Positions 3,801 through 19,903 of a stretch of 64,000 nucleotides of DNA are shown here, in pieces. The position numbers and the translations under genes are program-made. Under the pieces are notes generated by a model, which saw only the letters and a list, made by a program, of their open reading frames with translations, was not told where the DNA came from and ran no database searches. Origin of the DNA: Blattabacterium cuenoti (GTDB lineage Bacteria > Bacteroidota > Bacteroidia > Flavobacteriales > Blattabacteriaceae); contig NZ_CP059197.1 in the NCBI RefSeq assembly GCF_014251735.1, positions 124,001-188,000 on the forward strand. Direction: 5' to 3'. The first letter of the stretch is position 1. Each line of letters begins with the position of its first letter.

Positions 3801-4108
3801 ACATGAAAGTAAAATGTCCTATCGCATTCTTTTTTTTAAGAATGAGGAAAGTCCGGACACCATAGAGCAGTACAATGGGTAATTCCCATCCACCGAAAGG
3901 TGAGGAATAGTGCAACAGAAAGAAAGTACAGGAAAGCTGTAGTGAAATCATGTAAACTCTGTACGGTGAAATGCCATGTATACCGGATAATAAAATAACT
4001 TGCTCGGTTTATACCGGGGGGTAGGCAGATAGAGATAGTGGGTAACCACTATCCTAGATAAATGATAGGTATAAAAACAGAATCCGGCTTATAGTCTTAC
4101 TTTCATGT
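3801..4108 (+). ncRNA. rnpB: RNase P RNA (M1 RNA)
   Basis: The catalytic RNA of RNase P, which removes tRNA 5' leaders. Seen directly: the GAGGAAAGTCCGGAC core near 3841-3856, ACAGAA near 3915, and the 3' core CAGAATCCGGCTTAT near 4078-4092. The ends pair as a 12-bp P1 helix (3801-3812 with 4097-4108) and a run of ten T follows at 4111-4120, which could terminate transcription. The layout is that of type A bacterial RNase P RNA. It appears intact, in contrast with the frameshifted rnpA gene at about 15.7-16.1 kb. Confidence 0.95.
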
Positions 4109-15071: not shown

Positions 15072-15119
15072 AAAAAACTCTAATTCGAAACTTAAAATTT
15101 TTTTGAATAAATTTTGAAT

Positions 15120-15692
15120 ATGGAATGGATAAATTCATTAATCAGTTGTTTCATGATCCTTTTTAGCATTATCGATATACTAGGAAATGCTCCCATAATT
15201 ATGGGTTTTAAATCCAAAGGAAATATTATAGAGACAAAAAAAGTGATAGTGACTTCTCTTATTATCTTTTTATCTTTTTTGTTTTTAGGACAACCGATGC
15301 TAAAGATTATTGGTGTAGATGTCCACTCTTTTTCTGTTGCAGGATCTATCGTTTTGTTTCTAATTGGATTAGAAATGATTTTAGGCATAGATCTTCATAA
15401 AGTCACAGAAAATGCCCAAACTTCTATCGTTCCAATTGCTTTTCCACTTATAGCGGGACCTGGATCATTGACTACTCTAATTTCGCTAAGAACTACATAT
15501 GATGTAAATGTTATTCTTATCTCATTGATACTAAATATGATAGTCGTTTACTTTGTCATAGATAGATGTGATTTTATAGCTGAAAAAATAGGAAATAATG
15601 GTTTAGATATACTAAAAAAGATATTCGGGATCGTTTTATTAGCTTTTGCAGTAAAAATTTTTGGAGCTAACGCAGGTCAATTATTTCAATAA
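15120..15692 (+). CDS. MarC family integral membrane protein
   Basis: A 190-residue protein with six predicted membrane helices and the MarC/UPF0056 pattern: D-I-L-G-N-A-P near residue 20, SFSVAGSIVLFLIGLEMILG, and PIAFPLIAGPGSLTTLI. The substrate and role are unknown for this family; the old link to multiple antibiotic resistance was not upheld. The ATG at 15120 is preferred over the in-frame TTG at 15114. Its 3' end overlaps the rnpA end by seven bases, tail to tail. Confidence 0.9.
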   Translation: MEWINSLISCFMILFSIIDILGNAPIIMGFKSKGNIIETKKVIVTSLIIFLSFLFLGQPMLKIIGVDVHSFSVAGSIVLFLIGLEMILGIDLHKVTENAQTSIVPIAFPLIAGPGSLTTLISLRTTYDVNVILISLILNMIVVYFVIDRCDFIAEKIGNNGLDILKKIFGIVLLAFAVKIFGANAGQLFQ

Positions 15693-16094
15693 ATATGTTC
15701 AGTATTTATAATTATATTAAATATTTTTTTAATAGAGTAATTAATATCCTGGAATTTTGGTAAAAATTTTCCTACATAAATAAATACAATATGATAACTA
15801 CAACTAGTTCGCTTTATTTTTTCTTCTAAAATAGATTTATTCAATAAAAAAGAGGCCCGCAATAAACGTTTTATTCTATTTCTATGTACGGATTTTTTGA
15901 ACTTTTTTTTTTACCAAAGTCCCAATTAGCTTTGTCCATCTCGTTTTATTTTCCTTATTCGGATACAATAAAAAAAAACTATAAACAGGGAATACGGGTA
16001 ATAATTTTCCGTATTTGATTGTATTATAAATAATATTTTTTTTTCTTTTTACTTCAAAGCCCATACATACATACATTTCAAGTTTTCTCATCAT
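15686..16094 (-). pseudogene. rnpA: RNase P protein component, split by a +1 frameshift in a run of ten A
   Basis: Reading the minus strand, the first frame (to the TAG near 15887) gives EVKRKKNIIYNTIKYGKLL and YSFFLLYP, the start of RnpA. It then hits ten A (15903-15912). Removing one A joins it to a frame that gives VKKKFKKSVHRNRIKRLLRA, the signature RNR motif, and runs to a TGA at 15686-15688. Both halves are well preserved and the join reproduces the family alignment exactly, so the decay is recent or the message is corrected by polymerase slippage, as described for A-tracts in insect endosymbionts. A sequencing error is the alternative. The start is uncertain: ATGs at 16094, 16091, 16076 and 16064 are in frame, and the first ones overlap the fbp end. 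RnpB is intact at 3.8 kb. Confidence 0.88.
16062..16076. repeat. Tetranucleotide repeat CATA in the rnpA start region
   Basis: CATACATACATACAT holds three full CATA units plus CAT. On the minus strand it supplies four ATGs, four bases apart, at 16076, 16072, 16068 and 16064; the first and last are in the rnpA frame. Slippage of one unit would change the frame. Confidence 0.8.
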
Positions 16095-17079
16095 TCATAA
16101 ATTCCTCCAACTTTGAAACCATCCCTACAGGTCCACAAATGAATGGAGTCCTTTGATGTAATTTGAAAGGTTCTATATCTAGAATTCTTTTTTTTCCATC
16201 AGAAGCTTTTCCACCCGCTTGTTCTGTTAAAAATGCCATAGGATTGCATTCATAAAGTAACCTCAATTTTCCATTTGGAGAAAGCGCTGTTTTAGGATAT
16301 ATATATATACCTCCTTGTATCATATTTCTATGAAAATCTCCCACTAACGATCCAATATATCGTGCCGTATAAGGACGATTATCTTTTTCTTCTTGACAAT
16401 ATCTTATAAATTTTTTTATTCCATTAGGAAATCTAATATAATTTCCCTCGTTGATAGAATAAATTTTTTCTACTTCAGGAAAATGAAGTTTAGGATGAGA
16501 TAAATAAAAAGTTCCTACAGAAGGATCTAAAGTAAATCCATGTACTCCATTTCCTGTAGTATAGACTAAGATAGTGGAAGATCCATAAATAATATATCCT
16601 GCAATAATTTGTTGATTTCCTTTTTGTAAAAAATCTTCTATTCTTAAATCCATTTGAATAGGAGTATTTTTGATATACACTGAAAATATAGTACCAATAG
16701 ACACATTGACATCTATATTGGAAGAACCATCCAGTGGATCTATTAAAACAATGTATTTATTTTGAAGAGGATTTTCTTTTTCTCCATTTATAACTATAAA
16801 ATCTTTGCTTTCTTCCGAAGCTATGCCACAAACTACATTTCTGCTTTTAAATGATTCAATAAAAATTCTATGTGCAAAATCATCTAGTTTTTGTTGATTT
16901 TCTCCTTGTATATTAGTTATTCCGGAACTCCCAATTTTTTCGGTTAAACCGGCTTTATTCACCTCCTTATTAATAGCTTTAGCTGCTAATTTAATAGAAC
17001 TGAATAAACGTAATAAATCTTCTGTGGAATATAAAAAACGATCCCTATTTTCTATGATAAATTCTCCTAATGTATACAT
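16078..17079 (-). CDS. fbp: Fructose-1,6-bisphosphatase class I
   Basis: A 333-residue gluconeogenic phosphatase converting fructose 1,6-bisphosphate to fructose 6-phosphate. Seen: [17 protein letters not shown] near residue 51, ASEES metal site, the [22 protein letters not shown] metal and phosphate loop near 113, [12 protein letters not shown] and the C-terminal [10 protein letters not shown]. Together with fba at 55.1 kb it suggests gluconeogenic carbon flow. It overlaps the longest possible rnpA start. A candidate promoter lies about 130 bases upstream. Confidence 0.96.
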
Positions 17080-18136: not shown

Positions 18137-18622
18137 GTGAACAAAAAGATTCATATTTACACAGATGGTTCTTCTAAAGGAAATCCTGGACCTGGTGGAT
18201 ATGCGATTTTTATAGAAGTAGTAGGAACTTCTTATAGAAAAGTACTTTCCGAAGGTTTTCGTTATACCACTAATAATCGAATGGAACTATTAGCCATCAT
18301 AGTTGGATTAGAAAAAATTACAAAAACGAAACAGAATATTGTTGTGTTTACCGATTCTAAATATGTGGTAAATACTATTCAAAACAATTGGATATATAAA
18401 TGGAAAAAAAATAATTTTTATAAAAAAAAAAACGTAGATCTATGGATCCGATTTTTAGATATATTTAATCAACATTTTATTGTGTTTCAATGGATAAAAG
18501 GACATGATTTTCATTATATTAATGATTATTGTGATCGACTATCCGTAGAAGCTTCCAAAAGAAAAAATCTAAAAATAGATCATGTTTATGAGAAATATGA
18601 AAAGAAAAAAAATATTCATTAA
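18137..18622 (+). CDS. rnhA: Ribonuclease HI
   Basis: A 161-residue enzyme that cuts RNA in RNA-DNA hybrids. The four catalytic acids are visible: D in IYTDGSSKGNPGPGGYA, E in TNNRMELLAI, D in FTDSKYV and D in NDYCDRLS; the flap His is in KGHDFHYIND. The start is GTG at 18137, giving the family N-terminus directly. It is probably co-transcribed with plsC. Its stop overlaps the end of the convergent methyltransferase gene by four bases. Confidence 0.95.
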   Translation: MNKKIHIYTDGSSKGNPGPGGYAIFIEVVGTSYRKVLSEGFRYTTNNRMELLAIIVGLEKITKTKQNIVVFTDSKYVVNTIQNNWIYKWKKNNFYKKKNVDLWIRFLDIFNQHFIVFQWIKGHDFHYINDYCDRLSVEASKRKNLKIDHVYEKYEKKKNIH

Positions 18623-19399: not shown

Positions 19400-19467
19400 A
19401 TTATGAAATTTCTAAAAAATATGATAGAACTTACATGAATCTAGCTATAGAATGGTCAAAATTATCT
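19400..19467 (+). repeat. 68-bp direct repeat, copy 1 (decayed start of dCMP deaminase)
   Basis: Identical over 68 bases to 19476-19543, with a period of 76. In the deaminase frame it encodes the same residues 2-23 region (YEISKKYDR...) but lacks the ATG and reaches a TGA after a few further codons. It fills almost the whole gap between the methyltransferase and the intact deaminase gene. Confidence 0.97.
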
Positions 19468-19471
19468 TATA

Positions 19472-19903
19472 ATGAATTATGAAATTTCTAAAAAATATGA
19501 TAGAACTTACATGAATCTAGCTATAGAATGGTCAAAATTATCTCATTGTAAAAAAAAAAAAGTAGGAGCTATTATCGTAAAAAATAACCGAATCATATCC
19601 GATGGATACAACGGAACTCCAAGTGAATTTGATAATATATGTGAAGATCAAAATGGAGATACTAAATGGTATGTTCTGCATGCAGAAGCAAATGCTATTT
19701 TAAAAATGTCCACCTATTCGTATTCTTGTAAAGGTGCTTTTTTATACATTACACATTTTCCATGCAAAGAATGTAGCAAATTAATTTATCAGTCTAAAAT
19801 TAAAAGAGTCGTATATTTATATGATCATAAATATACCATAAAAAATGATGGATTAAACTTTTTAAAAAAATCTAAAATCATAGTAGATCCTATTTTTGAA
19901 TAA
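19472..19903 (+). CDS. dCMP deaminase family protein
   Basis: A 143-residue zinc-dependent cytidine/deoxycytidylate deaminase. Zinc and catalytic motifs: HAEANAI (His and Glu) and PCKECSKLI (two Cys), with substrate-loop GYNGTPSEFDN typical of the dCMP deaminase/ComEB group. Likely role: dCMP to dUMP, feeding ThyA. Bases 19476-19543 of this gene are the second copy of the 68-bp repeat. The spacer just before the ATG holds TATAAT (19468-19473), which may or may not act as a promoter. Confidence 0.9.
   Translation: MNYEISKKYDRTYMNLAIEWSKLSHCKKKKVGAIIVKNNRIISDGYNGTPSEFDNICEDQNGDTKWYVLHAEANAILKMSTYSYSCKGAFLYITHFPCKECSKLIYQSKIKRVVYLYDHKYTIKNDGLNFLKKSKIIVDPIFE
19476..19543 (+). repeat. 68-bp direct repeat, copy 2 (within dCMP deaminase)
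   Basis: Second copy of the perfect repeat, covering codons 2 to 24 of the functional gene. Identity of all 68 bases indicates a recent duplication, since nothing would preserve the non-coding upstream copy. Confidence 0.97.

Follow-up and report, generated by a model that had tools for sequence, protein, structure and literature searches.

A recurrent reading-frame break in rnpA at one poly(A) tract across Blattabacterium is probably bridged by transcriptional slippage

The window analyzed here, a stretch of 64,000 nucleotides from the genome of Blattabacterium cuenoti (NZ_CP059197.1, positions 124,001 to 188,000), carries a split rnpA gene. RNase P is a tRNA-trimming enzyme, and rnpA encodes its protein part. 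According to the window sequence and its list of open reading frames, the gene is distributed over two frames of the minus strand that meet at a run of ten A (A10; 15903–15912). The N-terminal half (15882–16094, minus strand) is an open reading frame of 70 amino acids in the zero frame, which reads through the tract and ends at a TAG. The C-terminal half with the RNR motif (15686–15904, minus strand) lies in the other frame and has no ATG, GTG or TTG ahead of this motif. The gene for fructose-1,6-bisphosphatase (16078–17079, minus strand) is located directly upstream and overlaps the start of rnpA with its 3′ end, and a convergent MarC-family gene (15114–15692, plus strand) shares 7 nt with the end of rnpA. 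The RNase P RNA gene rnpB (class A; 3806–4107, plus strand) is intact, with a match to RF00010 over the full model length (200.1 bits). The preliminary description of this DNA, which had rnpA split at A10 next to an intact rnpB, is borne out on both counts. No match to PF08745 (HARP-type RNase P) is present in the genome of the window. Taken alone, the C-half matches PF00825 with an E-value of 3.6e-07 over profile positions 50–106 of 109, and the N-half of the window gives no Pfam match at E ≤ 10. Identity to the unbroken rnpA of L078, a close relative (129 aa), amounts to 85% for the N-half frame and 83% for the C-half, and the RnpA proteins of intact relatives (129, 129, 133, and 125 aa) all score above the PF00825 cut-off.

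An A10 run as such is ordinary in the window, where 18 partly overlapping matches are found versus 15.9 expected from shuffles; it is the recurrence of the break at one site across the genus that is not chance. When the window is compared with two close relatives, nine frame changes are listed, and the one in rnpA is the only one with at least nine A in the printed junction. With one A removed from the tract, a linker of 27 nt separates the Val codon from the RNR motif, an open form that is present in the relatives L046 and L078. In 8 of 14 order-level relatives (the eight whose motif pattern matched) the linker has 10 codons, or 30 nt. Given both the 30- and the 27-nt form, one A fewer and two A more would each restore the frame of the window. 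The gene had initially been described as interrupted by one extra base, which holds insofar as taking one A out restores the frame; with the 30-nt linker of those relatives taken as the reference, the window is two bases short.

A match to rnpA was found in all 49 Blattabacterium genomes examined, including that of the window, and comparison of the tract among these sister genomes fits the early reading of the locus: rnpA is disrupted at the same tract in 39 of the 49 and is one open gene in 10. For each of the 49 loci, the register was obtained by measuring how far the RNR motif lies from the Val (or Ile) codon that precedes the tract; 11 genomes are in register 0, 18 in +1, and 20 in +2. L075 (Bge) is counted in register 0 but contains a stop flanked by two opposite shifts, hence there are 10 open genes and not 11. 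At least nine A are present at the tract in 46 of 49 genomes (lengths of 9, 10, 11, 12, and 13 in 3, 30, 9, 2, and 2 genomes) and at the join of all 39 disrupted copies. The tract is interrupted, with A6 as the longest run, in L036, L059, and L064, and all three are in frame (Fisher p 0.0065). In every one of the 49 genomes the N-half is open over 47–89 codons and the C-half over 56–75 codons past the RNR motif, and in 38 of the 39 disrupted genomes no ATG, GTG or TTG lies between the motif and the nearest stop ahead of it in the frame of the C-half. In the sister genera, the frame is unbroken over this stretch in 15 of 17 rnpA loci (the 15 in which the motif was read), eight of them with at least nine A; the other two were not matched by the motif pattern, one of them (G081) being a weak match with stops. 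Two further sister-genus genomes gave no rnpA match. Within this sampling, the split-frame state is therefore confined to the one genus.

The register of rnpA is without phylogenetic signal. On a tree of 13 neighbouring proteins, in which 35 of the 46 inner branches have good support, it changes 23 times, versus 22.5 times (sd 1.8) for shuffled labels, 3472 of 5000 shuffles giving 23 changes or fewer. Register differs in 10 of 15 sister pairs, and intact and disrupted genes are intermixed with at least nine changes between the two states. Frame 0 is not favoured and, if anything, rare: of the 46 genomes that bear the tract, 7 are open (binomial p 0.008 versus one third, relatedness ignored), and with Bge scored as frame 0 the frame counts are 8:18:20 (chi-square p 0.07, also ignoring relatedness).

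Both halves of rnpA are under purifying selection in pairs of out-of-frame genomes, in agreement with the initial impression that they are well kept. The constraint was estimated by counting methods in 12 non-overlapping pairs of such genomes, with a pooled pN/pS of 0.44 for the N-half and 0.43 for the C-half (binomial p 6e-9 and 1e-12). Under a composition-aware null, in which the same kinds of changes are dropped at random on matching bases, the expected N/S is 3.38 (N-half) and 3.53 (C-half) versus 1.77 and 1.86 observed, and 0 of 2000 simulations were as low for either half. Taken one by one, the three pairs in which both genomes have a 28-nt linker and the two in which both have 29 nt show the same trend (no more than 49 of 2000 simulations reaching so low a value). 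Changes that make a stop, scored singly, number 5 of 243 in the N-half and 6 of 335 in the C-half versus 14.8 and 18.6 expected, a weak count since the halves are open by the way they were cut. A pN/pS near 0.4 is only a moderate constraint, and it is uneven, as two of the pairs reach 0.99 and 0.86 in the N-half.

As a control, other A tracts were surveyed in a frame-aware manner across 55 gene families (about 60 kb, some possibly shadow ORFs) in 23 genomes. Across all tracts of at least nine A, the frame is kept at 989, changed at 25, and unscored at 46. The 25 changes fall in rnpA (10), a deaminase gene (11), and all other families together (4). Outside rnpA and the deaminase, 965 of 969 scored tracts are in frame and 4 are changed, and 40 tracts have no frame on one side and are hence unscored. 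The survey detected 10 of the 16 disrupted rnpA copies known in its 23 genomes, so that the number of breaks elsewhere may be too low by a like factor, which still leaves about 1% or less. Slippage, accordingly, does not make the frame neutral in general. Family F10, with 12 apparent shifts, was set aside, given at most A9 at its junction and a likely artefact from a 5′ extension of its representative. An earlier tblastn frame check of 18 neighbour genes (641 tracts in frame, 4 broken) is superseded, as its matches to the deaminase stop at the tract and this gene was thereby missed; only two of its four broken tracts are scored as a different frame in the tract table. A check of gene lengths found the neighbour genes q0, q1, q3, q6, q14, q17, and q18 to be short in one to six genomes. 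The RNase HI gene (window copy at about 18137–18592, plus strand) is in frame in the window and changes frame at A10 in L068 and at A13 in L044, two of 49 genomes. In L064, at 511 kb the smallest genome of the genus examined, an 815-aa gene, which we take to be aspartokinase-like, has two frame changes without long A runs; by way of contrast, this is likely true decay.

The deaminase gene constitutes a second case. In the window, this dCMP/cytidine-deaminase-like gene (PF00383; 19472–19900, plus strand) is intact and, as it does elsewhere when in frame, encodes C-KKKK-V with an A12 tract (19550–19561, plus strand); across the genus it is mostly out of frame. It was scored in 48 genomes (20 kb loci L160–L208), leaving out L078 with its stop beside the tract and its duplicated start. 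Uninterrupted tracts are in frame in 9 of 41 genomes (A12) and out of frame in 32 (30 with A11, 2 with A10). Interrupted tracts, with longest runs of A5 to A9, are in frame in 7 of 7 (Fisher p 1.6e-4). When both genes are pooled, interrupted tracts are in frame in 10 of 10 cases versus 16 of 87 uninterrupted ones (p 4e-7, relatedness ignored). The deaminase register does have a phylogenetic signal, with 12 changes versus 16.2 for shuffled labels (22 of 2000 shuffles at 12 or fewer; L060 misread, L051 and L078 excluded). The start of the gene is present as a tandem copy in the window (19400–19470 and 19476–19546, plus strand; 71 nt, 99% alike, spacing 76), and a similar tandem copy occurs in L078, where, judging from the stop beside the tract, the deaminase may be decaying. 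Further along, a match to the 5′ ureB sRNA family RF02514 (21275–21569, plus strand; 56 bits, gathering threshold 40), antisense to the urease gene by its ORF reading, may merely reflect conserved coding sequence.

The explanation we consider likely is that rnpA is a live gene whose messages come in more than one frame, through slippage of the RNA polymerase. The polymerase would add or drop A's on the long tract, yielding messages of mixed length, part of which would be in frame regardless of the tract length in the DNA. As some messages would be in frame at any length, the DNA register would be nearly neutral and drift by homopolymer mutation, with the amino acids on both sides still selected. 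We infer the slippage itself, as well as the production of full-length RnpA and the sufficiency of a fraction of its normal output. The suggestion in the preliminary description that an essential gene is rescued by polymerase slippage thereby gains support from the 39 of 49 disrupted copies, the constrained halves, and the three of three interrupted tracts in frame. A process that needs an uninterrupted tract and repairs either register accounts for both rnpA and the deaminase, and polymerase slippage fits this description. Two of the hallmarks of a slippage-rescued gene, a homopolymer of about nine or more at the shift and a remainder that is intact and selected, are found in rnpA, L075 carrying a second shift in addition. 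It is our guess that a low demand for RnpA explains why rnpA tolerates the loss of frame and most genes do not. More speculatively, rnpA may have been free of a frame since early in the genus, in which case slippage would be productive enough to leave the DNA frame uninformative, selection would keep the tract slippery, the in-frame share would set the RnpA level, and a few other genes such as the deaminase would behave alike while most avoid this state; we regard this extension as possible but doubtful.

Ribosomes favour the −1 direction of shift, which is the one required in rnpA at register +2 (20 genes) and in the deaminase at A11 (30 genes). A reading in which ribosomes rather than the polymerase restore the frame, by sliding or shifting on the A tract, is nevertheless rather unlikely for rnpA, given that the 18 genes in register +1 are not repaired by a −1 shift. 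Ribosome sliding on consecutive AAA codons is known in E. coli extracts and is robust with A11, but the accessible part of that work describes little of it on A9 or A10 (PMC4363877), and 30 of the 46 rnpA tracts are A10. Programmed −1 frameshifting is characterized by a fixed direction and by a stimulatory structure or SD-like motif, neither of which marks rnpA: no downstream structure stands out (mean fold z −0.07 over 49 genomes, one below −2), and an SD-like motif lies upstream in 4 of 49 only. In the deaminase, where one direction dominates (30 A11 versus 2 A10), −1 ribosomal shifting is therefore a fair rival.

It is improbable that rnpA is a pseudogene in most members of the genus, with the RNase P RNA working alone or little protein being needed, even though the majority of copies is out of frame and the Bge gene was published as a pseudogene with the RNA suggested to act alone (PMC2768785, in the part available). 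A pseudogene evolves neutrally and gathers further stops and indels. In rnpA, both halves are constrained in out-of-frame pairs and open in all genomes, intact and disrupted copies alternate on the tree, and the frame breaks at uninterrupted tracts only; decay would not give such patterns. The separate conservation of each half would also suit two polypeptides that assemble into a working RnpA, a highly improbable arrangement considering the 38 disrupted genomes that have no start codon of the three types before the RNR motif and the single open gene in 10 of 49. Homopolymers are error-prone, and a short A run in Bge, discussed below, is a possible case of an error; as the cause of the rnpA break, however, an assembly or sequencing error is very unlikely and the least probable reading of all, with 39 breaks in 49 genomes at one site versus 4 in 969 tracts elsewhere, 23 of the assemblies being the same (Fisher p about 1e-58, relatedness ignored).

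The rnpA of Bge has been published as the only pseudogene of that genome, through a presumed Lys-to-stop point mutation (PMC2768785), and L075 (G059) carries a stop at this position of the gene. In comparison with the sisters L042, L049, and L058, the stop arises, unlike the published point mutation, from a shift at the tract combined with one in the opposite direction in the next A run: L075 has A10, CTTT, and then A5 where the sisters have A6, with a TAA between the two shifts. Slippage at the main tract alone cannot rescue this copy. The second shift may reflect a miscounted homopolymer in the sequence of 2009, and the report of that year on the Blattella symbiont rnpA as a point-mutation pseudogene probably needs revision. 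The available RNA-seq of the Blattella fat body (PRJEB67739; PMC11050582) relied on poly(A) capture and retained no more than a part of the symbiont transcripts. For the symbionts of Periplaneta fuliginosa and P. japonica, rnpA is absent from the pseudogene list in the portion of that paper available (PMC6039017).

Taken together, it appears that an entire genus produces a core tRNA-processing protein from a gene that has no fixed frame in the DNA. The 49 genomes can be treated as a natural experiment in which tract length and register predict the strains that need slippage and its direction, with the interrupted tracts as built-in controls. The rnpA case also offers a test of the minimum RNase P protein a cell requires, and automatic pseudogene calls at such A tracts can be wrong.

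The source studies of poly(A) slippage rescue in Buchnera and Blochmannia are said to be those of Tamas et al. in 2008 and Wernegreen et al. in 2010. In the parts of the later literature available, slippage is described as rescuing frameshifts at poly(A) tracts in both symbionts (PMC3017870, PMC4389277, PMC5009743), as occurring on runs of nine A or T, and as giving 12–50% corrected transcripts at poly(A) runs in aphid and ant symbionts (PMC5009743). Slippage rescue is hence a known kind of event; a genus-wide, frame-blind rnpA was not found in the portions of literature searched, no report of it in Blattabacterium being among the matches listed, and an earlier mention is possible. The dnaX-type sites share with rnpA an A run as slippery site and yield products in two frames, whereas rnpA has no evident two-product function, no downstream structure, and no conserved genomic frame. 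Similar to rnpA, the Buchnera and Blochmannia cases concern AT-rich insect symbionts, a break at a homopolymer, and an otherwise intact gene, and the available accounts describe some frameshifts as common to several species without decay, with 4–8 such genes per genome in ant symbionts. Mixed transcripts have been measured in those symbionts. Unlike Buchnera and Blochmannia, Blattabacterium has one gene broken in 39 of 49 genomes, the two wrong registers both occurring and showing no relation to phylogeny, and a second gene nearby that behaves alike, while 965 of 969 other scored tracts stay in frame.
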